Part shown: one piece after another, positions 44,535 through 61,189 of the stretch | Position numbering within the stretch: the stretch's first letter is position 1 | Layout: each line of letters starts with the position of its first letter | Assembly (NCBI RefSeq): GCF_963676485.1 | Contig: NZ_OY781114.1 | Coordinates: forward strand, 2,327,001-2,391,000 | Origin: an uncultured Cohaesibacter sp. | Lineage (GTDB): Bacteria; Pseudomonadota; Alphaproteobacteria; Rhizobiales; Cohaesibacteraceae | Length of the DNA stretch: 64,000 nt | Direction of reading: 5' to 3' | Position numbers and translations under genes: made by a program | The notes under the pieces: generated by a model | Told to the model about the DNA's origin: nothing | Database searches by the model: none | The model's input: the letters and a program-made list of their open reading frames with translations, nothing else

Positions 44535-45668
44535 TTAACGATCAAGTATCGTTTCACCCACCTCATCAAGCCCACGCAGGCCGACAAGACCAAGATCTTG
44601 ATGCAACTCCTTTTTCAGGATTTGGATCGCCTGTTCAACCATCGACTGCCCACCAACTGCTGCAGCATACAGCATAGGTCTTCCTACAAAGACAAAATCA
44701 GCACCAAGCGCCACAGCTTTCAAGATATCGGTACCACGGCGGATGCCACCATCCACACCGAGCATCATTTCACCAGTTTCCTGTCGCGCGGTCTGCAACG
44801 CGCGCACGCCGCTGATGGCGAAATCGAGCTGCCGCCCGCCATGATTGGACAGGATCACGCCATCGCACCCATATGCGCGGGCACGCGCCACATCCGTATG
44901 TGCAAGAAGACCTTTCAAGACCAACTTGCCTTTCCAGATATCGCGGATCAGGCGCACATGCTCCCAATTCAGATGATCTTTACGACCAAAATCACGGACC
45001 ACATTTTTGGAGACGATCGGCACACCGCGTTCGGCAAAAGAATTCTCGAAATGCGGCATCCCGCGCTCTACGAGACTTCTTAGAAAGGTTCCGAAAACCC
45101 ATCGTGGTTTGAGCGCAAAATCGAAGATCAAACGCGGAGTAATCCTCAGCGGCGTTGAAAAACCGGCGCGCAGATTATTCTCGCGGTTCGCAAGAACGGC
45201 AGTGTCGGCGGTCAAAACGAGTGTTTTGTAGCCTGCACGGTCAACGCGCTGCACCAAGGCGCGAATACGGTCTTCCTCACCCGGCAAATAGGCTTGAAAC
45301 CAGGTATCTGGATTGCTTTCCAGCACACGCTCCAAAGGGGTGAGCGAGGAGCCGCTCAAAATAAACGGTATGCCAGCGTCTTTCGCAGCACGTGCCAGCA
45401 CGACATCACCATCCAGTGCCATGAGCGAAGAAATGCCCATGGGGGCGATGCCGAATGGAGCATCATATAGTTTATCGAAAAGGGGACGTGTGATCGTGCG
45501 GCCTTCTACGCCTCGCAAAACATTGGGGATCAGTCGCATTTGAGAGAAAACAGCGCGGTTATCCGCATAGGCAGAAGAGGTTTCCGCAGCGCCCGCAATA
45601 TATCCAAAGAGCGGGCGCGGAAGCCTCCGACGTGCAGCAATTTCGAAGTCATCCAGATTCAAAATCAT
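44535..45668 (-). CDS. FMN-dependent alpha-hydroxy-acid oxidase/dehydrogenase (LldD-like)
   Basis: 377 residues, the normal length. Active-site landmarks: 'FGYIAGAAET' near the N-terminus (substrate Tyr), 'PFGIAPMG' FMN contact, 'LTADTAV', Lys in 'LVLKGLL' and the catalytic His and Arg in 'ILSNHGGRQLD', then 'GVDGGIRRGTDILKAVALGADFVFVGRPML' for the FMN phosphate. The enzyme oxidises a 2-hydroxy acid (lactate, glycolate or mandelate type) to a 2-keto acid. As last gene of the tctCBA operon it probably oxidises the imported acid or its lactonase product. Substrate unknown. Confidence 0.88.
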   Translation of the reverse strand: MILNLDDFEIAARRRLPRPLFGYIAGAAETSSAYADNRAVFSQMRLIPNVLRGVEGRTITRPLFDKLYDAPFGIAPMGISSLMALDGDVVLARAAKDAGIPFILSGSSLTPLERVLESNPDTWFQAYLPGEEDRIRALVQRVDRAGYKTLVLTADTAVLANRENNLRAGFSTPLRITPRLIFDFALKPRWVFGTFLRSLVERGMPHFENSFAERGVPIVSKNVVRDFGRKDHLNWEHVRLIRDIWKGKLVLKGLLAHTDVARARAYGCDGVILSNHGGRQLDFAISGVRALQTARQETGEMMLGVDGGIRRGTDILKAVALGADFVFVGRPMLYAAAVGGQSMVEQAIQILKKELHQDLGLVGLRGLDEVGETILDR

Positions 45669-45680
45669 ACTGCCGGTTCC

Positions 45681-46484
45681 CTAGAAGCTATAAAGTTTTT
45701 CGGGGTTTTTCCATGTGCAGGCCAAATATTGCTCGGTAGACAGAACCCTTTCCAGCAGCTTCAGCATCGGTGGGATTTGTGGAAGCGGTGGCTTCGTCAT
45801 CACATGCGGCCAGTCGCTGCCCCAAATGCATTGGTCCGGGTAACCTTGCGCAATCTCCGCAACCAAAGTGTCCAGATCGTCATACTGTCCGATCTGACGG
45901 CTGACACGGGTGGGGGAAAGCTTGACCCAGACGCGGCCCGTATCCATCAGACGGCGCAGTTTTTGCAAATCTCCCGGCACGTCAGGGTCGACATGGGCAA
46001 TATGGTCTAGAACCAGTGAAACCTCTTTCGGAAGCTTGGGCATAAGCGCCGCTATGTCGTCGAAACTCCGTGGCTCGGTGTTCAACTCGATGTGCCAGCC
46101 GAGGCCAGCTGCGACTTCACCAAGAGCAGGCAATGTGTGAAGATCGCTGTCACCCAACCGTGCTCGATCCTGAATTCTGATGGCCCTGACGCCAGCTGCA
46201 TGCAGCGCTTGCAGATCAGCTGTTTCCGGGTTGATCGCAGCAACGCCGCGCAAGGAGAGCACCACTGATTGCGAGAGTGTTTCAACCAGCCGCGAATTGT
46301 CGGTTCCATCGACTGACGCCTGAATGATAACAGCGCGTTTGATGCCCAAAGGAGCCACCTCCTGAGCATAATCGGCAATGTCCACAAGCGGGGGCGCATA
46401 GGCCCCACTGGTCTTTGCTGGTCGTTTGGAGAAGGAATGGATGTGGCAATCACAGACCATGCCGGAATTGGAAAAATCAGCCAT
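45681..46484 (-). CDS. Amidohydrolase family lactonase (2-pyrone-4,6-dicarboxylate lactonase-like)
   Basis: 267 residues of the COG3618 amidohydrolase group. The first metal motif 'DCHIH' has His14 and His16; 'HIELNTE' and 'SLVLDHIAHVD' supply the middle of the site and 'WGSDWPHV' the final catalytic Asp. Relatives hydrolyse lactones such as 2-pyrone-4,6-dicarboxylate or sugar lactones, often without needing a metal. It overlaps the tctA gene by 8 bases and precedes the hydroxyacid oxidase by 12, so import, ring opening and oxidation could follow each other. The true substrate is not decidable from sequence. Confidence 0.82.
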   Translation of the reverse strand: MADFSNSGMVCDCHIHSFSKRPAKTSGAYAPPLVDIADYAQEVAPLGIKRAVIIQASVDGTDNSRLVETLSQSVVLSLRGVAAINPETADLQALHAAGVRAIRIQDRARLGDSDLHTLPALGEVAAGLGWHIELNTEPRSFDDIAALMPKLPKEVSLVLDHIAHVDPDVPGDLQKLRRLMDTGRVWVKLSPTRVSRQIGQYDDLDTLVAEIAQGYPDQCIWGSDWPHVMTKPPLPQIPPMLKLLERVLSTEQYLACTWKNPEKLYSF

Positions 46485-47964
46485 CGCGACCGGACCTCTT
46501 GCTTCTGTAATAGACGAAGATGCTGGTTGTGATCGACATCACAATAAGCACCAGCAAAATGAGCGTTATGGGAGAATCTGCAAAAATTCCAAACTTTCCG
46601 CCACTTGTCAGCAAGGCCTGACGCACGCTTTGCTCAAAGGGATGCCCGAGAATGAGGCCGATGAGCAGTGGCGGAAGCGGAAAGCCGCTGCGCCGGAAGA
46701 GAAAGCCGAAAAAGCCAGCTCCCAACATGACCCAAACATCAAACAGGTTGTTGTTCACTGAGAAAGCGCCGAACAGTGCCAAAATAGCAATCGCGGGTAG
46801 CAGGTGCCGTGGCTGAATGCGCGTGACATGAATGGCTGCACGGAAAAGAAGAAGGCCAAGGACAACAGTCGGTATGGACGAAAACAGCAGCGCTTCAAAA
46901 ATGGCGTAAACTTCAAGCCCGTTCTTTTCAAAGAGAAACGGACCGGGCGCCAAACCATGCAGCATGAAGGCGCCAAGAATGACAGCCGTGACCGCATCGC
47001 CGGGAATACCAAGCGCCAGCGTGGGAACCAGCGCTCCGCCCGTCACGGCATTGTTGGCAGCCTCGGGTGCGGCGATGCCTTCAGCTGCGCCCTTGCCGAA
47101 GGTTTCCTGTTCTTTGGAGCGTGAGCGCGCAAGACTGTAGCTCATGAAGGCAGGAACGGTGGAGCCGATGCCCGGCAGAATACCAACAAAGGTGCCGATC
47201 ATCGAGGAATAGAGAAGTGTCAGGCGCATGCGCCACATTTCAGCAAAGGACACATGGGAGGAACGCAATTCCGGCATGTCATCGGCACTGACCTCCGGCG
47301 CTCGGTTAAATACCTGCAGAAACACCTCCGACATTGCAAAAAGGCCAATCAGGACCGGAATGAGCTGGAAGCCGGATTCCATGGCGAAGGAATTGAACGT
47401 GAAACGCGGTGTACCACTGATCGGGTCAAGGCCGACAATGCCTGCGCAAACACCAACCAACACCATGATCAAAGCATCAAGCCGGGAACCGCCGCCAAAA
47501 AGCACGATCACCAAAAGTGCAAACAGCATCAACACCGCCATTTCGGCAGGGCCAAAATCAAGCGCCAGCCGCGCCAAAGGTTCGGCAAGTGCCATGAGCA
47601 CAAGGCAACTGAAGATATTGCCGAAGACACTGGCAAAAAGCGCCAGCCGCAGAGCGCGTCCACCTTCGCCGCGCCGCGCCATGGGAAATCCATCCATCGC
47701 CGTCGCCGCCGACGATGGCGTGCCGGGTACATTAAGAAGGACTGCGGAAATCGATCCGCCAAAAATTGCCCCCTGATAGACACCGAGAAGCAATATCATG
47801 GCTGGAACGGGCTGCATTGCAAATGTCACCGGGATAAGCAACGCGATGGCCATAGTCGGGCCCAGCCCAGGAATGGCGCCGATAATTACGCCGGTTGTAA
47901 TGCCGATCAGGGCCGCAGCCACAATCCAGAGATCCAGCAATTGAAGAAATGCATCCCAAAGCAC
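46477..47964 (-). CDS. tctA: Tripartite tricarboxylate transporter large permease (TctA)
   Basis: About 495 residues and 10-12 helices. Two family motifs are visible: 'GAIPGLGPTMAIALLIPVTF' and 'LLNVPGTPSSAATAMDGFPMA'. A GTG at 47964 with a GAGGA site 8 bases upstream gives the usual TctA N-terminus; the frame opens 5 codons earlier at another GTG without a good site. With TctB and the binding protein TctC it forms a sodium- or proton-driven importer for a carboxylate. The enzymes downstream suggest a lactone-forming or hydroxylated acid. Confidence 0.92.
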   Translation of the reverse strand: MLWDAFLQLLDLWIVAAALIGITTGVIIGAIPGLGPTMAIALLIPVTFAMQPVPAMILLLGVYQGAIFGGSISAVLLNVPGTPSSAATAMDGFPMARRGEGGRALRLALFASVFGNIFSCLVLMALAEPLARLALDFGPAEMAVLMLFALLVIVLFGGGSRLDALIMVLVGVCAGIVGLDPISGTPRFTFNSFAMESGFQLIPVLIGLFAMSEVFLQVFNRAPEVSADDMPELRSSHVSFAEMWRMRLTLLYSSMIGTFVGILPGIGSTVPAFMSYSLARSRSKEQETFGKGAAEGIAAPEAANNAVTGGALVPTLALGIPGDAVTAVILGAFMLHGLAPGPFLFEKNGLEVYAIFEALLFSSIPTVVLGLLLFRAAIHVTRIQPRHLLPAIAILALFGAFSVNNNLFDVWVMLGAGFFGFLFRRSGFPLPPLLIGLILGHPFEQSVRQALLTSGGKFGIFADSPITLILLVLIVMSITTSIFVYYRSKRSGRDG

Positions 47965-47999
47965 TGCGGAAGTCCTCACACTAAAATTATGTTAATTCA

Positions 48000-48464
48000 T
48001 CAAGGAAGGGGAACGCCAATTCCGTAACGCCCGCCATAATAGACGGTAATGGCGATAACCAAAGGCAGCCCCAAGACGAGCAGCGCTCGCCGCTCACCCA
48101 GCGCCAGCGTGGCAACAATGCCCAAGAAGATAGCGCCGGGAAGAAAACCAAAATGCGGCATTGACCAAAGCGCCATAACCGCAGCCAGCAGCACGATAAA
48201 CACCTGACCATAGCGACGGGCAGGGCCGATCGGGGTTTCCTGTTCTCCGAAATTCAGGATCAGCCTCAAGGCAGAGATTGCCGCCAGCAACCAGAGCACG
48301 ACCACGGGAACGGTGCGTGCATCCGGCCACTGATCGCCAAAGCTAAAAATCTGAATTTCAGAATCCGCGATCCAGATTCCGACAAGCGAACTGACCAGCA
48401 ATAGAATGCTGGTCAGAGCTGGCATAGTCAGTTGAAAATGCTTTGTTTTCGAGGTCATTGCCAT
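48000..48464 (-). CDS. tctB: Tripartite tricarboxylate transporter small permease (TctB)
   Basis: 154 residues with four predicted helices, the size and layout of TctB, a poorly conserved family; the call depends partly on position between tctC and tctA. It starts 4 bases after the tctC stop. An in-frame ATG two codons later is an alternative start. It stabilises the TctA complex in the inner membrane. Confidence 0.85.
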   Translation of the reverse strand: MAMTSKTKHFQLTMPALTSILLLVSSLVGIWIADSEIQIFSFGDQWPDARTVPVVVLWLLAAISALRLILNFGEQETPIGPARRYGQVFIVLLAAVMALWSMPHFGFLPGAIFLGIVATLALGERRALLVLGLPLVIAITVYYGGRYGIGVPLP

Positions 48465-48468
48465 TCAC

Positions 48469-49422
48469 TTACTTGCTGATTTCTTTGGCAATTTCCTGAT
48501 AGGCGTGGAAATTCTCCGAGATCGTCTTTTTCAGCTCTGCGCCCGACATGATACGGACCGGTTGGCCGAGCTTGGTCATGAATTTTTTGAATTCATCGGA
48601 GCTTGCAGCTTTCGTGAACGCCGTTTCCAGCTTGCTGATGATCGCAGGGTCGGTTCCAGCAGGAGCCAGAATGCCGACAATCGAGGGGAACTCGGCTTTA
48701 TAGCCAAGGTCTTTCAAGGTCGGTGCATCGGGGAATTCGGGATCTCGTGAGCCATCGAGCACGCCAAGCAGGCGAAGCTGCCCGTCCTGGACGAGATCAC
48801 GATAGGCTGGAACAAGCGCGATGTCGACATGACCGCCAAGAACTGCCGCAGTGGCTGCCGAGGCCCCATTGAAAGGCACATGTTGCAAAGCGCCACCCGA
48901 CTGTTTGGCAACGGAGGTGAAGGCCAGATGAGCACCACCAAGCGCACCTGCCGTGCCGAAGCTGAGGCTTGTGCCGGATTTTGCCGCCTCAATCATGTCT
49001 TCAAATGTCTTGTAGGGCGAATCCGCCTTCACAAGCACACCATGATAGGGGCCGGAATAGTTGAGAACAGGCTCAAAATCTTTGAGTGGATCATAACCGA
49101 CCGGGCGCAGAGCTGGTGTTACAAAAGAGGGCGATGAAGTCGCAGCGATCAATGTGTACCCATCAGCATCAGCCGCCGCGACGGCGCGCATGGCGTTTGC
49201 ACCGCTGCCACCTGGCATATTTTCAACAACGATCGGCTGGCCAAGAAGCTTTTCTGTTTGCGAGGCAAGCTGCCGCGCCGATGTGTCGGTCGTACCACCA
49301 GCGCCATAGGGAATGATGATTTTAACTGCATGGTCTGGATAATTATCCGCAGCCTGAGCGACAAACGGTGTGAGCAGCATACCTGCAGCAAGCACAAGAC
49401 CAAAACGACGTGTGATTTTCAT
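48469..49422 (-). CDS. tctC: Tripartite tricarboxylate transporter binding protein (TctC/Bug family)
   Basis: 317 residues. Sec signal peptide with cleavage near residue 24 (AQA). The Bug fingerprint is complete: 'YPDHAVKIIIPYGAGGTTD', 'VVENMPGGSGANAMRAVAAADADGYTLI' and 'VPFNGASAATAAVLGGHVD'. It binds a carboxylate in the periplasm and is the first gene of the operon. A 9-bp inverted repeat 120-142 bases upstream could be an operator. IS6 debris separates it from the divergent LysR gene that would be its natural regulator. Confidence 0.93.
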   Translation of the reverse strand: MKITRRFGLVLAAGMLLTPFVAQAADNYPDHAVKIIIPYGAGGTTDTSARQLASQTEKLLGQPIVVENMPGGSGANAMRAVAAADADGYTLIAATSSPSFVTPALRPVGYDPLKDFEPVLNYSGPYHGVLVKADSPYKTFEDMIEAAKSGTSLSFGTAGALGGAHLAFTSVAKQSGGALQHVPFNGASAATAAVLGGHVDIALVPAYRDLVQDGQLRLLGVLDGSRDPEFPDAPTLKDLGYKAEFPSIVGILAPAGTDPAIISKLETAFTKAASSDEFKKFMTKLGQPVRIMSGAELKKTISENFHAYQEIAKEISK

Positions 49423-50387: not shown

Positions 50388-51308
50388 GTGGCGAGCAAAA
50401 TAATTGATCTTCGTTTGATAACCTACTTTCTTCGAACGGCTGAGCTGGGCAACATCACCAAAGCAGCAAGTTCGCTCAATGTTGCTCAACCCACCTTGTC
50501 AAAGGCCATTCAGCAGCTTGAATATCAGTTGCGAGCGCCGCTGTTCAATCGAACGGCACAAGGCGTTGAAGTTACTCCGGTTGGCGAACGCTTGCTCCGC
50601 CACGCAAGATTGGTGTCGGCGCAAGTGACTGATGCGATCGAAGAGGTCGAGGCCATGCGGGATGGATCCGCCGGGCAGGTGCGTGTCGGTGCCGGGCCTT
50701 CCTGGGTGCGTCGCAAGTTGCCTCTTGCCGTGTCGATAGCGCTTAAGGAACGGCCCGGTATTCATATTTCTATTACCAGTGGTTTTGACGAGGGCTTGCT
50801 AGCAGGGTTGGAGGATGGCGCCCTTGATTTTGTTGTGGCCGAGAAACCGCTCTCGGGAGGAGAGCAGAAACATGCCTTCGAGTTTCTGACCGATGATGCG
50901 TTGATTGTTATGGGGCGACCGGATCACCCTTTGGCGAAACGAAGCAGTATTTCTCCCTGCGAGGCGTTGGCGGCAGACTGGGCGCTACCACCCCAGCATT
51001 CGCTTGCTCGCCGAAAGCTGGATGGCCGCATCATCAGTTTGGGGGAAACGCCTCCAGAGCCCATTCTGGTGACCAACTCCCAATCATTTTTGCTTAGCTT
51101 CGTCTTGAAACATGATGTGTTGCTCTACACGACCCGTTCGGTGACACGTATTCCTGAAGGCCGCGATCTGGTTGAGATCGACGTTCCTGAACTTGCGTCC
51201 TCGCGCGCGGCTGGATTGATTTATCGTCACCCGAAATTGTTGACACCTGCAGCACAGTTCCTCGCGGAGAAAATCAAGCAAGTCTGTCAGGACGATCCCA
51301 TTAATTGA
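50388..51308 (+). CDS. LysR family transcriptional regulator
   Basis: 306 residues. N-terminal winged helix-turn-helix ('RLITYFLRTAELGNITKAASSLNVAQPTLSKAIQQLEYQLRAPLFNR', about 8-55) and a two-lobed effector domain from about residue 90. It starts with GTG, with a TGGAG site about 10 bases upstream. It is divergent from the tctCBA operon, with IS6 debris between them, and is 248 bases before the sulfatase operon on the same strand; either could be its target. LysR genes usually sit next to and divergent from their targets, favouring tctCBA. Binds a small acid effector in most relatives. Confidence 0.9.
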   Translation: MASKIIDLRLITYFLRTAELGNITKAASSLNVAQPTLSKAIQQLEYQLRAPLFNRTAQGVEVTPVGERLLRHARLVSAQVTDAIEEVEAMRDGSAGQVRVGAGPSWVRRKLPLAVSIALKERPGIHISITSGFDEGLLAGLEDGALDFVVAEKPLSGGEQKHAFEFLTDDALIVMGRPDHPLAKRSSISPCEALAADWALPPQHSLARRKLDGRIISLGETPPEPILVTNSQSFLLSFVLKHDVLLYTTRSVTRIPEGRDLVEIDVPELASSRAAGLIYRHPKLLTPAAQFLAEKIKQVCQDDPIN

Positions 51309-51556: not shown

Positions 51557-52891
51557 ATGATCAAGAGGCATCTGAATGCCGCCGGTCTGTTGACCGGCAC
51601 AGCGCTTTCGTTTGTTTTGGCGGGCTCAGCCATGGCAGCGGAAACACCAATCACGATTGTCATCAATCAGTCGCCGTGGTTCCCCGGATTCCAGTCGGTC
51701 GTCGAGCTGTATGAAGAGACCACAGGCAACACAGTTGATCTCGACGTTAACCCTTTCGCGGGATCTCTGGAGAAGCAGCGGACAGCAGTCAGAACGGACC
51801 AGAGTCCATTTGATTTGCTGATCATGAATGCAGGCTTTTTTGTCGAATTCTACAAGGGCGGGTTCCTCGATCCCCTGACCGATATCAATCCGGACTTCAA
51901 GCTTTCGGCGGACATCTATGACTTTGATGAGTCTGTTTGCTGGGATGCGACCTCTATGAGCGTGACTTGCGGCGGGGATGGCAAACTGTTGAGTGTTCCG
52001 GTAAACCCGAACATTCTGATTCTGCACTATCGATCCGATCTATATGAGGAAAAAGGCCTGAAAGTCCCCCAAAACTGGGATGAACTGATGGCCAATGCCA
52101 AGGTCCTCAACGACCCGCCAAGGATGTATGGGATTAGCCAGCGTGGCCAACGCGGCGCCTTTGACGTCACTTACGATGTCTTTCCCTATATTTGGTCCTT
52201 TGGTGGTGGCATCTTCAAGGATCAAAAAGCGGGTGACTTCACCATCACGATCAACAGCCCTGAAACCCTTGCGGGGATGGAAACCTATATCAAGTTGGCT
52301 CGAGAGGTCGGCCATCCTTCAACTGCAGGTCAGACTCAAACCAACGTCATACAGAATATGGCAACGGGAAAAGCCGGGCATATCATGTCGGTCCTGTCTC
52401 CGGGGCTGTTTGACGATCCGAACCAGTCGGCGGTCGTTAACAAGGTGAATTACGCGCCAACGCTTGCCTCCAAGGACCATGAAGCAGCGACGCCGCTGGG
52501 CCACTGGCTGGCAGGTGTGCCAAAGAATGTGCCGGATGACCATAAGAAAGCCGCTCTGGCATTCCTGAACTGGTTCCAGAGTCAGGAAGCACAAGAGGCT
52601 TATGCCCGTGCGGGCTCAGCTCCCGTCAGCCGAGCCGTGCTTGAAGGGCCAATGTCCGAAACACAGGAGTTCCGCTGGATGAAGGCTATGGCCAAGGCCA
52701 TTCCGACAGCCAAGCTGACTTTCCTTATTCCGGAATCGAGTCAGGTTCTGGCTGTTACGGAATTGCGGCTGAATGAAGCGATCGGTGGGCAAATGGAGCT
52801 CAAGGATGCGCTGAATACCGCAGCGAAGGAAATCGCCGAGATCATGTCCAATGCGGGCTATGACGCGCCAACCCTGACCGATCTCGAGTAG
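51557..52891 (+). CDS. ABC sugar importer binding protein of the sulfatase locus
   Basis: 444 residues. Sec signal peptide with cleavage after about residue 27-28 (AMA). The mature protein is a family 1 solute-binding protein ('VVELYEETTGNTVDLDVNPFAGSLEKQRTAV', 'PFDLLIMNAGFFVEFYKGGFLDPLTD', 'AALAFLNWFQSQEAQEAYA'). Two Cys residues about 11 apart ('ESVCWDATSMSVTCGG') could form a disulfide. First gene of an operon with two permeases, a sulfatase, a DUF4432 protein, an ATPase and a sulfatase maturase, so the ligand is probably a sulfated mono- or oligosaccharide. A hairpin follows the stop codon. The AGGAGGAAA-like site (GGGAGGAAATCT) before the ATG is strong. Confidence 0.9.
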   Translation: MIKRHLNAAGLLTGTALSFVLAGSAMAAETPITIVINQSPWFPGFQSVVELYEETTGNTVDLDVNPFAGSLEKQRTAVRTDQSPFDLLIMNAGFFVEFYKGGFLDPLTDINPDFKLSADIYDFDESVCWDATSMSVTCGGDGKLLSVPVNPNILILHYRSDLYEEKGLKVPQNWDELMANAKVLNDPPRMYGISQRGQRGAFDVTYDVFPYIWSFGGGIFKDQKAGDFTITINSPETLAGMETYIKLAREVGHPSTAGQTQTNVIQNMATGKAGHIMSVLSPGLFDDPNQSAVVNKVNYAPTLASKDHEAATPLGHWLAGVPKNVPDDHKKAALAFLNWFQSQEAQEAYARAGSAPVSRAVLEGPMSETQEFRWMKAMAKAIPTAKLTFLIPESSQVLAVTELRLNEAIGGQMELKDALNTAAKEIAEIMSNAGYDAPTLTDLE

Positions 52892-52901
52892 TTCTCCCAT
52901 G

Positions 52902-52927
52902 GCTGTCCCGCCTCTCTGCGGGGCAGC
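52902..52927 (+). repeat. 10-bp stem hairpin after the binding-protein gene
   Basis: Arms GCTGTCCCGC and GCGGGGCAGC pair fully if one G-U is allowed, with a 6-base loop, starting 10 bases after the binding-protein stop. No T-run. It separates the binding-protein message from the permease message, as at three other loci in the window. Confidence 0.6.
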
Positions 52928-52950
52928 TCTCAAAAGCATGGAAAATCTTC

Positions 52951-53826
52951 ATGAAAACGGATCGCTTTTGGCGCTACGCCACATTAGCACCCGCAGTTCT
53001 GCTCTTTCTCCTTCTGACGATCCTTCCGCTTTTCAATCTGTTGGCTTTGAGTTTCAACGATATTGAATGGGTGAATCGTGAGGCCGTCTGGGAATGGGTC
53101 GGTTTGCGCAACTATGTTCGACTCTTCTCCGATACGTTATTCCGTGCGGGGATCATCAACACCATTCTGTTTGCTGTGGTTGCTGTTGCCTTCCAGATGG
53201 TGCTCGGCTTCTGGCTGGCGTTGCTGACCAGCCGTGTCACAAGACTGAAAATCTTCTATCGAACCGTCTTCATCTTGCCCATTCTGGTGCCCGGCATCAT
53301 CATCGGGGCAATCTGGAAGCTGATGTATTCCTACGATTTTGGCGTCCTCAATCAGGCTATCCTGTGGTTTGGCGGCAATCCGGTCGACTGGCTTGGCAAC
53401 CCCAATCTTGCCTTGATGAGTGTCATCATTGTCGACGTTTGGCACTGGACACCCTTCTGCTTCCTTTTGATGCTCGCCAGCCTTGAAAGCCTGCCGCAGG
53501 ACATTTTTGAAGCCGCCGAGGTTGATGGTGCCCGCAACTGGCAGGTTCTGCGCTTTCTCATTCTGCCGCTCATGATGCCCGCGATTATCGTCACCTTCAT
53601 CTTCCGAATGATCCTTGCCTTCAAGGTTTTCGATGAGGTCTACCTGCTGACGGGTGGCGGCCCCGGCACCTCGACAGAGGTCATTTCCTTCACGATCTAT
53701 CGACGTTTCTTTACGGAAGATCAGGCCGGGTATGGATCTGCCATGTCGCTTGCGACCATCATCGTTATTGCGTCCATGATCATCGCGGCCTCTCGTTTTG
53801 CTGCCCGAAAGGAGCCTAACGCATGA
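52951..53826 (+). CDS. ABC sugar importer permease, MalF/UgpA type
   Basis: 291 residues, six helices, EAA loop 'FEAAEVDGARNWQVLRFLILPLMMPA'. The N-terminus 'FWRYATLAPAVLLFLLLTILPLFNLLALSF' is typical of UgpA-like carbohydrate permeases. It pairs with the next gene, which overlaps it by 4 bases (ATGA), to form the channel through which the sugar reaches the cytoplasm. Confidence 0.92.
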   Translation: MKTDRFWRYATLAPAVLLFLLLTILPLFNLLALSFNDIEWVNREAVWEWVGLRNYVRLFSDTLFRAGIINTILFAVVAVAFQMVLGFWLALLTSRVTRLKIFYRTVFILPILVPGIIIGAIWKLMYSYDFGVLNQAILWFGGNPVDWLGNPNLALMSVIIVDVWHWTPFCFLLMLASLESLPQDIFEAAEVDGARNWQVLRFLILPLMMPAIIVTFIFRMILAFKVFDEVYLLTGGGPGTSTEVISFTIYRRFFTEDQAGYGSAMSLATIIVIASMIIAASRFAARKEPNA

Positions 53827-54653
53827 TCAATCTCACCAAATTCGGGCCCTTGGCGCGCCATGTGATGCTGTTTGGCTTTGCCATGATCGTGCTGTTTCCA
53901 TTCGCATGGATCATCATGGCCAGCTTCAAGACCCAGATTGCCTTGTTGATGGGGCAATGGAGCTTTTCGCCGACCCTTTACTCGTATGACTCGGTGATGA
54001 ATGGCAAGACATCCGACTTTCTCACCAATTTCAAGAATTCCTCGATTATCGCCATCAGCTCGACAATCATCGTGCTGACGGTCGCCACGTTGGCGGCCTT
54101 TTCCCTCTATCGGTTGCGATGGGCAGGCTGGGTCTTGCGCTTGCTTCTGGCTTGGTCCGTCATCTTTCATATGGTGCCGCCCATCACACTTGCCGGAGCC
54201 TGGTACACGATGTTCCGTTTTATCGGTCTCGATAATACCTACACCGGCATCATCCTCGCTCACACGACCATCAATCTGCCGATGGCTCTGTGGATGATGG
54301 GTGTTTTCATTCGGGACGTACCGAAAGAGCTGGTCGAAGCGGCCAAGATTGACGGCGCCAGAACGCCTCAGATCCTTCGTTCCGTCGTTGTGCCTATCGT
54401 CCGGCCCGGATTGGCTGCCACTGGTATCCTGTGCTTCATCTTCTCGTGGAACGAGTTCCCAGTCACTCTGACCTTGTCGCAACGGGCAACGGCGACAGTG
54501 CCGCTTGGCATCGGCAAATATGCGCAGGAAAACACCATCGCCTTCACTGAAATGGCAGCAGCCTCGGCGCTGTCCATCATACCAGCCTTCATACTGCTGA
54601 TCTTTGCCCAGCGCTTCATCGTGCGTGGGTTAACATCCGGCGCAGTCAAATAG
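53823..54653 (+). CDS. ABC sugar importer permease, MalG/UgpE type
   Basis: 276 residues, six helices, EAA loop 'VEAAKIDGARTPQILRSVVVPIVRPG', with the conserved 'FKT' after the first helix and 'INLPMALWMM' in the middle. Second transmembrane subunit of the importer. The stop is 9 bases before the sulfatase gene, so the transporter and the enzyme are made from one transcript. Confidence 0.92.
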   Translation: MINLTKFGPLARHVMLFGFAMIVLFPFAWIIMASFKTQIALLMGQWSFSPTLYSYDSVMNGKTSDFLTNFKNSSIIAISSTIIVLTVATLAAFSLYRLRWAGWVLRLLLAWSVIFHMVPPITLAGAWYTMFRFIGLDNTYTGIILAHTTINLPMALWMMGVFIRDVPKELVEAAKIDGARTPQILRSVVVPIVRPGLAATGILCFIFSWNEFPVTLTLSQRATATVPLGIGKYAQENTIAFTEMAAASALSIIPAFILLIFAQRFIVRGLTSGAVK

Positions 54654-54662
54654 GAGTCCCGC

Positions 54663-56189
54663 ATGCGTACCGTTTTTCTTCTATTTGACAGCCTCAACCG
54701 GCATATGCTCGAGCCTTATGGGGGCTCGAGGGTTCCAACGCCCAACTTTAACCGGCTGGCAGCCCGCTGTGCCACGTTCGAGAAACATTATGTCGGCTCC
54801 ATGCCTTGCATGCCTGCCCGGCGTGACATACTAACCGGGCGGCTCGGGTTCCTGCATCGCAGTTGGGGGCCTGTGGAACCGTTTGACGTCTGCTTCACCG
54901 AAGAGCTGATGGAGCAGAAAGGAACCTATTCCCACCTCGCGACGGATCATTTCCACTATTGGGAAGACGGTGGTGCCACCTATCACAATCGCTACGACAG
55001 CTATGATTTGATCCGTGGACAGGAAGGCGACCCTTGGGTGCCAGCTGCCTGTCCCGATTGGGGGGCCCTTCGGGAGCTGGTCCACGAGAAACAATATTCT
55101 GAAAAACAGCGCAGTTATCCGCGCAAGAATATGGTCAATCGTGAGCGCATTCGCTCGGAGGAAGATTTCCCCAGTCACAAGACGGTTGAAGCTGGTCTTC
55201 AGTTCATTGATCGCAACAAGGCTTGCGACAACTGGTTCCTGCAGATCGAGTGTTTCGACCCGCATGAACCCTTTCAGGCCCCGGATCGGTTCAAGGAGCC
55301 TTTCCAAACAGACTGGAACGGTCCGGTGCGTGACTGGCCACCCTATGATCGGGTCGGAGAATCCGAGCTTGAAAGCGAGGAATTGCGCGCCAATTATCGG
55401 GCTACTCTGTCCCACTGCGATCATTTGCTTGGCCGGGTTCTTGATGTCTTTGACGATCAGGATTTGTGGGAAGATACAGCACTGATTGTCACCACCGATC
55501 ACGGCTTCCTTCTTGGCGAGCATGACTTCTGGGCCAAGAACCGGATGAATCTCTACGAAGAACTGGCTCATATCCCGCTCTTCCTGCATGACCCTCGTCA
55601 TCCCTGTCCGGGAGAGCGGGTTGATGCACTGACCCAAACACCTGATTTGTGCGCGACCTTCATGGACTTGTATGAGGCATCGATGGCGCCGGAAATGCAA
55701 GGGCTGTCGCTTTTGCCGATGCTGAAGGGCGCGCCGGGGCATGAGGCGGTCATGTTTGGCTTTTTCGGCGGTGCGGTGAATGTCACCGACGGGCATCATA
55801 CCTATTTCCGATATCCTTTCGATCTCGCCGAGCAGGACATTTATCAGTACACCCTGATGCCGACCCACATCTTTGATTTCTTTGCAGACGTCGAGCTGGA
55901 AAAGGCAACATTGGTTCCGCCCTTTTCGTTCAGCCGGAACATGCCGTTGTTGCGGGTGCCTGTCCATGAAACAAGCGCGATGTATAAGACCTATGGTCCG
56001 GGCTGTCTGATGGAAAACACGACGGTTCTTTACGATCTTGATGCGGATCCCGGTCAGACGACCCCGCTTGATGATCCGGAATGCGAAGCCCGGATGGAAA
56101 GCCTCCTATCGCAGCTGATGAAGCAGGTTGATGCCCCGGCTGAAGCATGGTCGCGCCTGCGACTGGAACTCTCTGGAGAGGCGTCATGA
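54663..56189 (+). CDS. Formylglycine-type sulfatase, cytoplasmic
   Basis: 508 residues of the alkaline-phosphatase-like sulfatase superfamily. The activation motif C-x-P-x-R is 'CMPAR' (Cys49 to Arg53), so Cys49 must be oxidised to formylglycine. Metal-site residues include Asp9 in 'LLFDSLNR' and 'TTDHGFLLGEHDFWAKNRMNLYEE', with the usual Asp-His and Lys/His positions. It has no signal peptide: the sulfatase fold starts at residue 2. It would therefore remove sulfate from a sugar after ABC import. It is encoded between the permeases and a DUF4432 gene, with a radical-SAM maturase further down. Phosphonate monoester hydrolase is a related alternative, but the maturase argues for sulfatase. Confidence 0.9.
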   Translation: MRTVFLLFDSLNRHMLEPYGGSRVPTPNFNRLAARCATFEKHYVGSMPCMPARRDILTGRLGFLHRSWGPVEPFDVCFTEELMEQKGTYSHLATDHFHYWEDGGATYHNRYDSYDLIRGQEGDPWVPAACPDWGALRELVHEKQYSEKQRSYPRKNMVNRERIRSEEDFPSHKTVEAGLQFIDRNKACDNWFLQIECFDPHEPFQAPDRFKEPFQTDWNGPVRDWPPYDRVGESELESEELRANYRATLSHCDHLLGRVLDVFDDQDLWEDTALIVTTDHGFLLGEHDFWAKNRMNLYEELAHIPLFLHDPRHPCPGERVDALTQTPDLCATFMDLYEASMAPEMQGLSLLPMLKGAPGHEAVMFGFFGGAVNVTDGHHTYFRYPFDLAEQDIYQYTLMPTHIFDFFADVELEKATLVPPFSFSRNMPLLRVPVHETSAMYKTYGPGCLMENTTVLYDLDADPGQTTPLDDPECEARMESLLSQLMKQVDAPAEAWSRLRLELSGEAS

Positions 56190-57202
56190 CAGACAAACGC
56201 AAAGCCACCCCGAAGGCACAGCTCAAACATCTGACCGGCAATTTGCAGCAGTTGGCAGCCGTGCGCAGCATTATTCTGGATGAGGGGCCCGCGCTGGGCC
56301 AACGCGCCCTTGCTTTCTCAACCGGTGGCGGTCTTGATTTTTGGATCTTCTCGGACCGCACAATGGATATCGGACCGCTTTGGTTCCATGGTATGCCGGT
56401 TGCGTGGCATCATCCCGCTGGCATGCTCTCGCCCGCTCTTCACGACGCGCACAGAGACCGGGAAACCGGCATTGAAAGGGCCTTGACTGGCTTTATGATG
56501 ACCTGCGGTCTTGATAATGTGCGCCAACCTCAGGATGGTCTGCCGCTGCACGGAACGTTGCCCTTTACGCCAGCACGGGTCACCGCTTATGGCGAAGACT
56601 GGAACGCGGCCACTCCGGTCCTGTTTGCTGAAGGCACCATTGTCAGTGCGCATTTGGGAGGGGCCAGTTTTTCACTGCTGCGCCGGATTGAGGCCCCCAT
56701 TGGCGGCACCAGCCTGGAGGTGACAGACACGATTGAGAATATCGGGCCAGAACCCGGCCTCTTCCGCATCCTTTATCACACCAACTTCGGCTTTCCTGCC
56801 GTTGGTGCGGGAACGCGGGTTTTGCTGAACGGCCGTGAGCTGATGCAGCATGAGCCGCCCGGTGAAGACACGCAACACCGCAGCGCTCAAGCCGAATGCC
56901 ATCCGTCGGGTACTGGCGGTTTCCTCGCCTCGCTTGAGCGTCCAGCCTCGGGACAATGGCAGGGTATCAGGGTCAACCTGGAAGGGGACGCTCGGAATTT
57001 GCCCTATGTCCAGCTGTGGTCGGATCCGCGCCCCTATCGCAATATTGTCTCCATTGAACCGGTAAACTGCGACCGCCGGAGTGATGGCACCAGCACGGAC
57101 GGCATGAAACTGATGCCCGGAGAGGCATGGACGTCCACCCTCAAATATTCATTCAACTATCTCGATGCGTTCAAGAAAGGAGCCCCAAATGGCAACAGTT
57201 GA
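56186..57202 (+). CDS. DUF4432 (aldose 1-epimerase-like) protein
   Basis: 338 residues. The beta-sandwich pattern ('DFWIFSDRTMDIG', 'HGTLPFTPARVTAYGEDW', 'FRILYHTNFGFPAVGAGTRVLL', 'YRNIVSIEPVNCDR') matches DUF4432 proteins, relatives of galactose mutarotase; the His in 'LHGTLPF' and the Glu in 'SIEPVN' correspond to mutarotase active-site positions. It may speed up anomer exchange of the desulfated sugar or isomerise it. The start overlaps the sulfatase stop (ATGA) and the end overlaps the ATPase gene by 14 bases, so it is tightly embedded in the operon. An upstream in-frame start is not needed. Confidence 0.85.
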   Translation: MTDKRKATPKAQLKHLTGNLQQLAAVRSIILDEGPALGQRALAFSTGGGLDFWIFSDRTMDIGPLWFHGMPVAWHHPAGMLSPALHDAHRDRETGIERALTGFMMTCGLDNVRQPQDGLPLHGTLPFTPARVTAYGEDWNAATPVLFAEGTIVSAHLGGASFSLLRRIEAPIGGTSLEVTDTIENIGPEPGLFRILYHTNFGFPAVGAGTRVLLNGRELMQHEPPGEDTQHRSAQAECHPSGTGGFLASLERPASGQWQGIRVNLEGDARNLPYVQLWSDPRPYRNIVSIEPVNCDRRSDGTSTDGMKLMPGEAWTSTLKYSFNYLDAFKKGAPNGNS

Positions 57203-58283
57203 ACTGAAGGAGGTCAGCAAGAGTTTTGGCAAGCTCGAAGTCATCAAACCACTCAACCTGTCGATTCACGAGGGTGAGTTTCTGGTGCTGGTTGGACCAT
57301 CGGGGTGTGGCAAGTCAACCTTGCTGCGGATGATTTCCGGACTGGAAACCATTTCCAGCGGCGACCTTTTCATAGGGGAACGTCGTGTCAATGATGTGCC
57401 GGCGCGTGATCGCGGCATTTCCATGGTGTTTCAGTCCTATGCGCTTTATCCGCATATGACGAGTGCCGAGAATATGAGCTTTTCACTCCGTCTGGCGGGA
57501 CTGAGCGCAGACGATCAGGCAAAACAAATTGCCCCGGCAGCCAACGTGCTCGGTCTTGATTCCTATCTGGACAGACTTCCCAAAGAGCTGTCGGGTGGCC
57601 AGCGGCAAAGGGTGGCAATGGGCCGCGCCATCGTGCGTGAACCGGATGTTTTCCTGTTCGATGAACCGCTCAGCAACCTTGATGCCAAGCTGCGTGTCCG
57701 CATGCGTGCCGAGCTCAAAGAACTGCATCAGAAGCTTGGCACGACGACCGTCTATGTGACCCATGATCAGATCGAAGCCATGACGTTGGCAGACAGGATT
57801 GTCGTTCTCAGAGACGGAGAGATCGAACAGATCGGTGAGCCTTTGGACCTCTATGATCATCCGGCCAATCGCTTTGTTGCATCCTTTCTTGGCTCGCCGT
57901 CCATGAATTTCTTCGATTTGCCGGTCGCGCAAGACGGCCTTTGTCGAGCCGTTTTTGAAGATGGGGACAGTCTGATGTTGCCCCAGTCCTTCCCTGCTAC
58001 CGACAAAATCACCGTGGGCATACGCCCCGAAGCCCTCCGGCTGGTTTCTGAAGCCGAGGAAGGGAGCATTTCTGCTCAGGTGGTGGTGGTCGAAGCGACA
58101 GGGGCCGAAACCGAGCTCGTGCTGCGCAAGGGAACGCACGAGCTTATCGTCAGTTTCCGCGATCGCATCAGCATTCGCCCCGGAGAGACCGTCCATCTCG
58201 CCATGGATCCAAACACTTTCCATCTGTTCAACCCTCAAACAGGGGCCGCCCTGGTCCGCACCCAATCTGGTGACAGCCGATAA
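57189..58283 (+). CDS. ABC sugar importer ATPase (UgpC/MalK type)
   Basis: 364 residues. Walker A 'GPSGCGKST' (36-44), Q-loop 'MVFQSYALYPHM', signature 'LSGGQRQRVAMGRAI', Walker B 'VFLFDEPLSNLD', switch 'VYVTHDQIEAM', and a C-terminal OB-fold regulatory domain ('SPSMNFFDLPV', 'GIRPEALRL'), the standard layout of carbohydrate importers. It energises the permeases encoded two to three genes earlier. The ATG at 57189 lies inside the end of the DUF4432 gene, preceded by AAAGGAGCC. Confidence 0.93.
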   Translation: MATVELKEVSKSFGKLEVIKPLNLSIHEGEFLVLVGPSGCGKSTLLRMISGLETISSGDLFIGERRVNDVPARDRGISMVFQSYALYPHMTSAENMSFSLRLAGLSADDQAKQIAPAANVLGLDSYLDRLPKELSGGQRQRVAMGRAIVREPDVFLFDEPLSNLDAKLRVRMRAELKELHQKLGTTTVYVTHDQIEAMTLADRIVVLRDGEIEQIGEPLDLYDHPANRFVASFLGSPSMNFFDLPVAQDGLCRAVFEDGDSLMLPQSFPATDKITVGIRPEALRLVSEAEEGSISAQVVVVEATGAETELVLRKGTHELIVSFRDRISIRPGETVHLAMDPNTFHLFNPQTGAALVRTQSGDSR

Positions 58284-58320
58284 ACTGGAAAGACATCCAG
58301 AGCAAAGGAGCGTGCGCGGT

Positions 58321-59652
58321 ATGGAGGCGATGAAGGACCAACCCTTTCAGGTGATGGCAAAGCCCATCGGGCCGCGGTGTAACCTTGACTGCAAATATTG
58401 CTACTATCTGGAAAAGGAAAAGCTGTATCCCGAAACAAAGAAATTCGAGATGCAGCCCGATGTTCTGGAGACCTATATCCGCGACTTCATCGCCTCGCAG
58501 GTTCGGCTCAAGGTGCCGGAGATCTGGTTCAACTGGCAAGGTGGTGAGCCGACCATCTTGGGGCTCGATTATTTCCGCCAGATCGTCGCGTTGCAAAAGC
58601 GGTATGCGCCCGAAACTGCCGCCATCCGCAATGCATTGCAGACCAACGGCATGTTGCTGGATGAGGAATGGGCCGAGTTCCTGAAGGAAAACGGATTTCT
58701 CGTGGGGATCAGCATCGATGGGCCGCAAGAGATCCATGATGCCTTTCGCTACGACAAGGCAGGGCGGGCCAGCTTCACGAGCGTGATGCGCGGCTATGAG
58801 CTGCTCAAGACCCATGGGGTTGAGCACAATATCCTTACCGTGGTGCATCGGGAGAATGCCAAGCGCCCTTTGGAGGTCTACCGCTTCCTCAAGGAAATTG
58901 GGGCAGAGTTCATCCAGTTCATCCCCATCGTGGAGCGCAGTGCGGACGGCAAGACACTTGCCAGCGCACCACAGATCGACGAGGACGGCGTGCCGTATGA
59001 GGTGACGCCCTGGAGCGTGTTGCCGCGCAACTACGGCTCCTTTCTGACAACCGTCTTTGATGAATGGGTGACCCGTGATGTCGGCTCTGTCTTCGTCCAG
59101 TTTTTCGACATGCAGCTGGGGCTGTTCATGGGGCAGCCAGCTTCCCTCTGTGTCTTTGCCGAGACATGCGGGCAGGGGCTGGCGATGGAACATAATGGTG
59201 ATCTTTATGCCTGCGACCATTATGTCTATCCGCAGTTCAAGCTTGGCAACATCACCGAGACACCGGTTGATAGTCTTGCCAATTCCGCTCAGCAAAAGCA
59301 ATTTGGCGATGCCAAGCGCGACACTCTGACAGAGCAATGCCGGAGCTGCGATATCCGCTTTGCCTGCAATGGGGGCTGCCCCAAACACCGGTTCCTCAAG
59401 ACAAAGAGCGGCGAGCCCGGGCTCAACTATTTCTGCCGCTCAACCACTCAGTTCGTGAAGCACGCCCGGCCTTATCTCGAGACCATGGTCAAACTGTTGC
59501 AGGCGGGTCGCCCGGCGAGCGATATCATGCGTCTCATCAACAGTGGTCAGATATGCGGCGGCAACAGGTTGAAACCCGCCAGCGCCCCAAGCCGCAATGC
59601 ACCCTGCCCATGCGGCAGTGGCCGCAAATTCAAGCATTGTTGTGGGGCTTGA
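58321..59652 (+). CDS. Anaerobic sulfatase-maturating enzyme (radical SAM) with C-terminal SEC-C motif
   Basis: 443 residues. The radical-SAM cluster motif 'CNLDCKYCYY' (Cys20, Cys24, Cys27) comes first; the SPASM region has the cysteines expected for two more clusters ('CVFAETCGQG', 'YACDHYVYP', 'CRSCDIRFACNGGCPKHRF', 'NYFCRS'). Such anSMEs turn the active-site Cys or Ser of a sulfatase into formylglycine without oxygen. The end, 'RNAPCPCGSGRKFKHCCG', is a SEC-C zinc motif, unusual in this family and perhaps a docking module. It is the last gene of the sulfatase operon. The ATG at 58321 follows AAAGGAG; an earlier in-frame start at 58270 would overlap the ATPase gene. Confidence 0.92.
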   Translation: MEAMKDQPFQVMAKPIGPRCNLDCKYCYYLEKEKLYPETKKFEMQPDVLETYIRDFIASQVRLKVPEIWFNWQGGEPTILGLDYFRQIVALQKRYAPETAAIRNALQTNGMLLDEEWAEFLKENGFLVGISIDGPQEIHDAFRYDKAGRASFTSVMRGYELLKTHGVEHNILTVVHRENAKRPLEVYRFLKEIGAEFIQFIPIVERSADGKTLASAPQIDEDGVPYEVTPWSVLPRNYGSFLTTVFDEWVTRDVGSVFVQFFDMQLGLFMGQPASLCVFAETCGQGLAMEHNGDLYACDHYVYPQFKLGNITETPVDSLANSAQQKQFGDAKRDTLTEQCRSCDIRFACNGGCPKHRFLKTKSGEPGLNYFCRSTTQFVKHARPYLETMVKLLQAGRPASDIMRLINSGQICGGNRLKPASAPSRNAPCPCGSGRKFKHCCGA

Positions 59653-59926: not shown

Positions 59927-61189
59927 ATGACACAATCCCAAATACCAAATGATGATTTTGTACCCCGTTCCGCTGTTATGAAGACATTGACGGAGCGCGG
60001 CTATATCAACCAGACCACAGCTTCGAGCGAACTCGATGCAAGCTTTGAAGCCGGTATCGTTCCCGCATATGTCGGGTTTGACGCAACTGCCGACAGCCTG
60101 CATGTGGGGCACCTGCTGCCCATCATGTCGCTGCGCAGGCTCCAGCAGGCGGGCCACAAGCCGATTGTTCTGATTGGAGGGGGCACAACACGGATCGGAG
60201 ATCCGAGCTTTCGCTCCGAGGCTCGCCCGATGCTTTCAGAAGAGCAAATCGCCAGCAACATTGAGGGGATCAGGAAGGTGTTTGATCGCCTCCTCGTCTT
60301 CGGTGACGGCCCGACCGACGCGATAATGGTGAACAATGCCGAATGGCTCGATGATGTCCACTGGGTGGACATGCTCAGGGATGTTGGCAGTCACTTCTCG
60401 ATCAATCGGATGCTGTCTTTCGACAGCGTAAAAGCCAGACTCGAGAAGCAGGAAAATCTAAGCTTTCTGGAGTTCAACTACATGATATTGCAGGCCTATG
60501 ATTTTCTGGAGCTGTCTCGCCGCACCGGTTGCAAATTGCAAATGGGTGGGGCCGACCAATGGGGCAACATCATCAACGGCATTGATCTTGTGCGCAGAGT
60601 TGACAGGCAAGAGGTTTTTGGGATGACCGCGCCTCTGCTGTCAACGTCATCGGGTGTGAAGATGGGCAAGACGGCAGCTGGAGCCGTCTGGTTGAATGCA
60701 GATCGCCTGTCGCCATACGACTATTGGCAGTTCTGGCGCAATACCGAAGATGCCGACGTCTCGCGCTTCCTCAAACTGTTTACAGATCTGCCGATGGAAG
60801 AGATCGCCCGACTTGGTGAAGCAGAGGGCGCGGAACTCAATGGTGTTAAGGAACGCTTGGCCAATGAGGCCACAGCGCTTGTCCACGGCAAGGAGGCTGC
60901 CGAGCAAGCATGCAAAACCGCCAAGCAAACTTTCGAGGATGGCAGCGCAGCACATGGTCTACCAACCCTTGAGCTTGGTGATGAAGAACGGGTCCATGGG
61001 GTTTCGATTGTCGACCTTTTGGTCCGGTCCGGCTTGACATCTTCCAAAGGGGAGGCGCGACGAGCCATCGCCGGTCGTGGTATACGCATCGATGACGCCT
61101 GTATCGAAGATGCTGATGCGACCATTGTTTCCAAAGGTCAGCCAATGCGGCTTTCTCATGGGCGCAAACGCCACGTCGTCATAAAATAA
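59927..61189 (+). CDS. tyrS: Tyrosyl-tRNA synthetase
   Basis: 420 residues, class I. The first signature is HVGH (59-62) and the KMSKS-type loop reads 'GVKMGKT'. 'NYMILQAYDFLEL' and 'LQMGGADQWGNIINGIDL' line the tyrosine pocket, and an S4 RNA-binding domain occupies the last 60 residues ('SSKGEARRAIAGRGIRIDD'). It charges tRNA-Tyr with tyrosine in the cytoplasm. The KMGKT ending, in place of the KMGKS I recall for alphaproteobacterial homologues, and its place between a sulfatase operon and IS debris leave open that it is a second copy. The terminator just upstream separates it from that operon. Confidence 0.93.
   Translation: MTQSQIPNDDFVPRSAVMKTLTERGYINQTTASSELDASFEAGIVPAYVGFDATADSLHVGHLLPIMSLRRLQQAGHKPIVLIGGGTTRIGDPSFRSEARPMLSEEQIASNIEGIRKVFDRLLVFGDGPTDAIMVNNAEWLDDVHWVDMLRDVGSHFSINRMLSFDSVKARLEKQENLSFLEFNYMILQAYDFLELSRRTGCKLQMGGADQWGNIINGIDLVRRVDRQEVFGMTAPLLSTSSGVKMGKTAAGAVWLNADRLSPYDYWQFWRNTEDADVSRFLKLFTDLPMEEIARLGEAEGAELNGVKERLANEATALVHGKEAAEQACKTAKQTFEDGSAAHGLPTLELGDEERVHGVSIVDLLVRSGLTSSKGEARRAIAGRGIRIDDACIEDADATIVSKGQPMRLSHGRKRHVVIK

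Follow-up and report, generated by a model that had tools for sequence, protein, structure and literature searches.

The window considered here is a stretch of 64,000 nucleotides (nt) from an uncultured Cohaesibacter sp. (contig NZ_OY781114.1, positions 2,327,001 to 2,391,000 of the forward strand). Between positions 50388 and 59652, it carries eight genes that share one strand and are overlapping or closely spaced, including those for an ATP-binding cassette (ABC) importer, a sulfatase-family hydrolase, a DUF4432 protein and an anaerobic sulfatase-maturating enzyme (anSME). These genes likely serve the import of a substrate that is then hydrolyzed in the cytoplasm; a sugar as the substrate and sulfate as the cleaved group are both plausible. 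An earlier interpretation made from the sequence alone (the sequence-only reading) had placed an importer, a sulfatase, a DUF4432 protein and a maturase at 51557-59652, and the named genes are indeed found at these coordinates, with matches to the named families. Its interval omits the LysR gene at 50388-51308, which is part of the conserved cassette.

The first gene of the cassette encodes this LysR-type regulator (50388..51308, plus strand as for all eight genes; PF03466 and PF00126). It is followed by the genes for the substrate-binding protein of a sugar-type ABC importer (51557..52891; SBP_bac_1, PF01547, E 2.8e-31) and for two permeases with the domain BPD_transp_1 (PF00528), of which permease 1 is MalF-like (52951..53826) and permease 2 MalG-like (53823..54653). 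The next gene encodes the sulfatase-family hydrolase, a presumed formylglycine enzyme of the cytoplasm (54663..56189; PF00884, E 4.7e-29, 102.1 bits against a cut-off of 25). Downstream are the genes for the DUF4432 protein, which has a mutarotase fold (56186..57202, in an open reading frame that opens at 56147; PF14486, E 4e-42), an ABC ATPase of the UgpC/MalK type (57165..58283; PF00005 and TOBE_2; NF008653, 470.7 bits against a cut-off of 432) and the anSME, a radical S-adenosylmethionine (SAM)/SPASM protein (58270..59652; TIGR03942, 493.9 bits against a cut-off of 349.45; PF04055, PF13186 and PF02810). The likely translation starts are 56186 for the DUF4432 protein, near 57189 for the ATPase and 58321 for the anSME; in the related locus L104, the anSME opens at the Met that corresponds to 58321.

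Import, likely cytoplasmic hydrolysis and a plausible sugar substrate

The binding protein has a Sec-like N-terminus, as read by eye, and its relatives in the PDB include the trehalose/maltose-binding protein 1eu8 and SmoF (7nbz). Together with the two permeases and the MalK/UgpC-type ATPase, it makes up an importer of the CUT1 type. The sequence-only reading described a sulfatase gene tightly coupled to the importer genes, and a product with a CMPAR activation motif and no signal peptide; both descriptions hold. The two permease genes overlap by 4 nt, only 9 nt separate permease 2 from the sulfatase gene, and the sulfatase and DUF4432 genes share an ATGA overlap, provided that the DUF4432 start is 56186. 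C49 of the hydrolase lies in CMPAR. The in-frame codons ahead of its ATG are TAG GAG TCC CGC and its first metal ligand is already found at residue 9 (D9); a signal peptide is therefore impossible, since there is a stop just 5' of the ATG and a metal ligand so close behind it.

Starts were also compared among related loci (numbered with the prefix L), which were taken as the best 80 of 144 relatives; the neighbor counts over these 80 loci are lower bounds, with several loci stopping at a contig edge. In all 80 relatives, the first matched residue is query residue 1 and is encoded by a start codon (76 ATG, 3 GTG and 1 TTG), and 61 of them have no in-frame start at least 15 codons upstream. Among the remaining 19, an in-frame start 15-70 codons upstream is present in 13, and reading these 13 extensions by eye revealed no signal-like hydrophobic core. 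Eight more distant copies from the same genus (L085-L092) all open on ATG at residue 1, three of them (L086, L088 and L091) with no start at least 15 codons upstream. The hydrolase of L118 does not open on a start codon within the range used. Import followed by cytoplasmic hydrolysis is likely, because the window gene leaves no space for a signal peptide, the coupling to the importer is tight and the same enzyme clade is found beside other importer types. The sequence-only reading had predicted that the substrate enters intact and is desulfated in the cytoplasm; import and cytoplasmic hydrolysis are well supported, while the word 'sulfated' rests on the family name.

A sugar is a plausible substrate for import and hydrolysis, as the importer is of the sugar type and the DUF4432 protein is mutarotase-like. 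In a Foldseek comparison, the top match of the latter was 3ty1, a putative aldose 1-epimerase (E 5.9e-19), with galactose mutarotases next. All 25 rows of its alignment carry H122, H198 and E291. Two of these, H198 and E291, pair with a His and a Glu of 3k25, though the match is weak (E 1.1), and the other His we take to pair with a GalM residue by motif. The PF14486 domain, the mutarotase fold and the two His and one Glu identify a galactose-mutarotase-like protein of the DUF4432 family, and the combination of this fold with the invariant His/His/Glu favors a sugar substrate. The substrate had been proposed to be a sulfated monosaccharide or small glycoside, of which the sugar part is plausible from the importer and the DUF4432 protein and the sulfated part again depends on the name of the family. 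The related absence of a glycoside hydrolase from the operon was borne out among recurring neighbors: none was recognized in the gene clusters present in at least 4 of the 80 loci, a check made by eye on the first residues of a single representative of each cluster, with Pfam applied to some clusters only.

The active site and the proposed mechanism

The hydrolase contains the residues D9, C49, R53, H201, D279, H280 and K292, and its PF00884 domain and CxPxR activation motif are those of the S1 formylglycine sulfatases. The CxPxR motif is unbroken in 81 of 81 sequences, and C49, P51, R53, H201, D279, H280 and K292 are invariant across the aligned sets. In choline sulfatase, the metal and acid residues are Asp14, Asp296, His297, His201 and Lys309, according to an excerpt of PMC5870055. 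D9, D279, H280, H201 and K292 of the window enzyme align with these, so that the metal-binding and general-acid residues are present.

The reading that we favor, tentatively and just short of calling it probable, is that the locus is a LysR-controlled import-then-desulfate cassette for a small sulfated sugar, with a hydrolase matured by the anSME. We infer a series of steps that begins in the periplasm, where the binding protein would take up a small sulfated sugar. The importer, with its two permeases and one ATPase, would carry this sugar, as the enzyme's own substrate, whole into the cell. The adjacent anSME would turn Cys49 of the sulfatase-family enzyme into formylglycine, after which the enzyme would strip the sulfate in the cytoplasm. 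The DUF4432 protein would interconvert the anomers of the sugar, before or after loss of the sulfate, and the LysR gene presumably controls the cassette.

Several observations weigh against this reading. In alignment A1, the Lys of the GKxH motif is absent in 44 of 44 rows, with D95, H96 and H98 found instead, and the position of the sulfate-site Asn is occupied by Pro (P70), again in 44 of 44 rows. The equivalent of Gln15, which contacts the catalytic Lys in choline sulfatase, is Ser in all rows that reach it (43 of 44). The sulfate site is termed invariant across S1 sulfatases in a passage of the review PMC10154612. No anSME is present in the stretches examined for the 80 related loci (0/80), an anSME adjoins the cassette only in the window and in two genomes of its own genus, and one of these, the anSME of L103 (L103:10191-11572), reads in two overlapping frames. 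In addition, no sugar-catabolic gene was recognized as a constant member of the cassette in the related loci, and a glycerophosphodiesterase (GDPD) gene lies within 6 kb of the hydrolase in 15 of the 80 loci, 6 of which also carry an inositol-phosphatase-type gene.

In place of the GKxH motif, the window clade has (T/S)DHxH, and it lacks the pairing of GKxH Lys and sulfate-site Asn of S1 sulfatases. The two residues were present in most of the 18 comparators of the MAFFT alignment, several of which are close to one another (GKxH in 16, Asn in 17); the two without GKxH are phosphonate-monoester-hydrolase-like and carry GYTD. Lys102 and Asn75 of choline sulfatase are postulated to touch the sulfate oxygens (PMC5870055, in part). 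According to a portion of PMC5488252, arylsulfatases have Lys and His where phosphonate monoester hydrolases have Tyr and Thr or Asp, and a His beside the nucleophile is a mark of the former and not of the latter. Both H96 and H98 are invariant in the window clade, and as the alignment is gapped there, either could match the arylsulfatase His. The signature of the phosphonate monoester hydrolases and PehA (2vqr, 2w8s and 4uph; NF045661), a Tyr with Thr or Asp, is absent from the clade, as is their Asn, and the window enzyme reaches 111 bits with NF045661 against a cut-off of 900. Judged by its aligned residues, the clade fits neither the arylsulfatase nor the phosphonate-monoester-hydrolase pattern, with a His kept and the Lys gone. 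The residue equivalence comes from a sequence alignment that is gapped here, not from a superposition of coordinates. In the comparison of the clade with choline sulfatases, hhalign and MAFFT disagreed on the position of the GKxH stretch, and the MAFFT placement and the strand end were followed. The structural fold scores are tied between sulfatase and phosphonate hydrolase and do not separate the two. Because neither the Lys nor the Asn of a standard sulfate site is present in the clade, sulfate as the cleaved group is plausible without being established.

Probable maturation to formylglycine

The sequence-only reading called the maturase dedicated. This stands for the window's genome, in which the sulfatase at 54663-56189 is the sole PF00884 match and the adjacent anSME at 58270-59652 the sole TIGR03942 match at E 0.001, and it fails for the family at large, given the related loci without an anSME. 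The window maturase scores above the curated TIGR03942 cut-off and shares the radical SAM and SPASM domains of known anSMEs, to which it adds a C-terminal SEC-C motif (PF02810). This motif is also found in five of the eight other anSMEs inspected (L104, L106, L107, L118 and L120). The window's genome also contains two matches to PF03781, the family of formylglycine-generating enzyme (FGE)-like proteins (L111 and L112). The cysteine pair of FGE (285 and 290 in the FGE of L008) is missing from both by eye, with at most one Cys in L111 and none in L112, which leaves the adjacent anSME as the only maturase recognized in this genome. Maturation of the hydrolase by the adjacent anSME is likely in the window's genome.

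Outside this genome, maturation may be organized differently. Among the close relatives of the same genus, an anSME is found beside the cassette in L103 and L104, and not in L105. The genome of L103 carries two more anSME genes, in L106 and L107. An FGE-type gene (PF03781) is near the hydrolase in two of the 80 loci, at 216 nt in L008 and 137 nt in L075, and three more loci (L045, L068 and L074) have one 4.8-6.7 kb away. In 35 genomes with a related enzyme, an anSME was recorded in 6 (E of 1e-60 or better) and a PF03781 match in 30 (below 1e-30 in 27), although the PF03781 counts also take in proteins that are not FGE. Both types are present in 4 of the 35 genomes and neither at the limits of 1e-60 and 1e-30 in 6; for these six genomes, another route to formylglycine or an incomplete genome is possible.

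Conservation, exchangeable neighbors and alternative readings

The arrangement of the cassette is conserved across many Alphaproteobacteria and in Granulosicoccus. A homologous permease gene is located directly upstream of the hydrolase gene in 45 of the 80 loci and a DUF4432 gene directly downstream in 41, with both in 38 loci, which indicates that the grouping is not due to chance. The binding protein gene is found upstream in 50 loci and a LysR gene, on the same strand, in 34, and the ATPase gene is downstream in 19 and upstream in 6. A close copy, with 87% or more identity, is present in 4 of 18 genomes of the genus, including the window's own, and the cassette is therefore an accessory trait in the genus. 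Outside the genus, the nearest relatives come from Tropicimonas and from an assembly of Rhodobacteraceae (78-80%). The hydrolase also has matches in 506 plasmid records, of which 115 cover at least 80% of the query, and one plasmid record labels a related enzyme 'choline-sulfatase'.

The importers next to the hydrolase vary while the hydrolase stays, as the same clade adjoins ABC, tripartite tricarboxylate transporter (TTT) and phosphotransferase system (PTS) genes. Enzymes of the same genus with 46-49% identity adjoin LysR and TTT genes in L106-L110 and L120; TctA was confirmed by Pfam in all six, and an anSME is also present in L106, L107, L109 and L120. The related enzyme of a Klebsiella genome (L118; 43-44%) has a PTS gene and an anSME in its vicinity. 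TctA or TctC homologs are found in the stretches examined around the hydrolase in L010, L014, L023, L026, L045, L051, L055, L060, L073, L075 and L080; TctA homologs are within 6 kb in L055, L060 and L075 and TctC homologs just upstream in L045, L051 and L073. The neighbor types cluster on a 90-row tree, with 13 changes against a shuffled mean of 39, on a tree made by a quick method with long branches flagged and labels set by hand. L030 was placed in the GDPD group for its transporter genes alone, DUF4432 and TTT genes occur together in L055, and the label 'other' was given to L045, L051 and L073 despite their TctC-like genes.

Other candidates were considered as parts of the system. The TctABC, amidohydrolase and flavin mononucleotide (FMN) dehydrogenase genes of the window (44535-49422, minus strand) were rejected, since tblastn at E 1e-8 did not recover TctA, TctC, the amidohydrolase or the FMN dehydrogenase from the stretches examined around the cassette in L103, L104 and L105. 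Similarity of the amidohydrolase to 4-sulfomuconolactone hydrolase is weak, at 83 bits where the cut-off is 500. A second tyrosyl-tRNA synthetase gene (59927-61189) directly follows the maturase gene, and its product has 51% identity to the other copy of the genome; it was rejected as a part of the system, being present in only 2 of 18 genomes of the genus. Viral carriage was also rejected, with one stretch matching a pattern and no relative. A recurring protein (516 residues in L022, L022:5201-6751) is encoded within 6 kb of the hydrolase in 11 of the 80 loci and matched nothing in Pfam or NCBIfam at the thresholds applied.

The import-then-desulfate reading has to be weighed against explanations that keep parts of it. 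In an unlikely but serious one, the architecture is the same and the chemistry differs: the natural substrate of the formylglycine hydrolase, taken up by the importer, would be a sugar phosphodiester, a phosphonate monoester or some other ester or an amide in place of a plain sulfate ester. The enzyme also lacks, however, the Tyr with Thr or Asp of phosphonate monoester hydrolases and the Asn that these share with sulfatases, it scores far below the NF045661 cut-off, and its histidines near the nucleophile are retained. Moreover, none of the 43 loci with DUF4432 within 6 kb has a GDPD neighbor. Import and desulfation of a non-sugar, such as a sulfamate or a small sulfate ester of an alkyl or aryl group, with a task other than mutarotation for the DUF4432 protein, is quite improbable. 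Choline sulfatase is a relative that acts on a non-sugar, and the TTT genes beside the enzymes of the same genus and the TctC-like genes upstream in L045, L051 and L073 point in the same direction. A formylglycine-dependent sulfatase of Shinella also acts on acesulfame, as stated in a passage of PMC11500405. Against this stand the sugar-type importer of the cassette, the mutarotase residues kept by DUF4432 and a score of 106.7 bits with the choline sulfatase model TIGR03417, below its cut-off of 433.45.

That importer and hydrolase are mere neighbors without a common substrate is very doubtful. The ATPase gene directly downstream in only 19 loci, the DUF4432 gene in 41 and the several kinds of importer beside the clade would fit this explanation, but the genes are overlapping or closely spaced and the permease and DUF4432 genes flank the hydrolase together in 38 loci from Alphaproteobacteria and Granulosicoccus. 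In a broader and rather unlikely, though possible, scenario, the widespread clade with its rebuilt sulfate site would be a cytoplasmic module behind varied importers (ABC types, TTT and PTS) and maturases (anSME or FGE), with a reaction other than standard sulfate-monoester hydrolysis.

The import-then-desulfate reading has parallels in known systems. Choline sulfatase is a precedent for cytoplasmic desulfation after import, and this principle is therefore not new in itself. The window enzyme belongs to a different clade than the choline sulfatase BetC that accompanies choline-O-sulfate uptake in rhizobia (TIGR03417; 6fny), lacks equivalents of Lys102, Asn75 and Gln15, and adjoins a sugar-type importer and DUF4432. 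In sulfoquinovose operons, a sulfur-bearing sugar is imported by an ABC system and degraded through a sulfonate pathway without a sulfatase. Their binding protein SmoF (7nbz) is related in sequence to that of the window (E 2.3e-11), but the window locus has a sulfatase-family hydrolase. The S1 carbohydrate sulfatases of Bacteroidetes (for example, S1_7 ulvan sulfatase 6hhm and S1_11 5g2v) are alike in fold and nucleophile motif, whereas the window enzyme has no signal peptide and has changed sulfate-site residues. The carbohydrate sulfatases covered in the excerpted text of PMC10154612 are mostly periplasmic.

In the open-licence PMC literature searched, the cassette is not described by title or abstract, and neither of the two articles found to name DUF4432 is on sulfatases by title. 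The cassette is a new variant of a known strategy. If the substrate is imported whole, many Alphaproteobacteria of soils and the sea would have small sulfated sugars to themselves as a source of carbon or sulfur. In addition, the missing sulfate-site residues offer a ready test of whether a large group of genes is rightly labeled 'sulfatase' or 'choline-sulfatase'.

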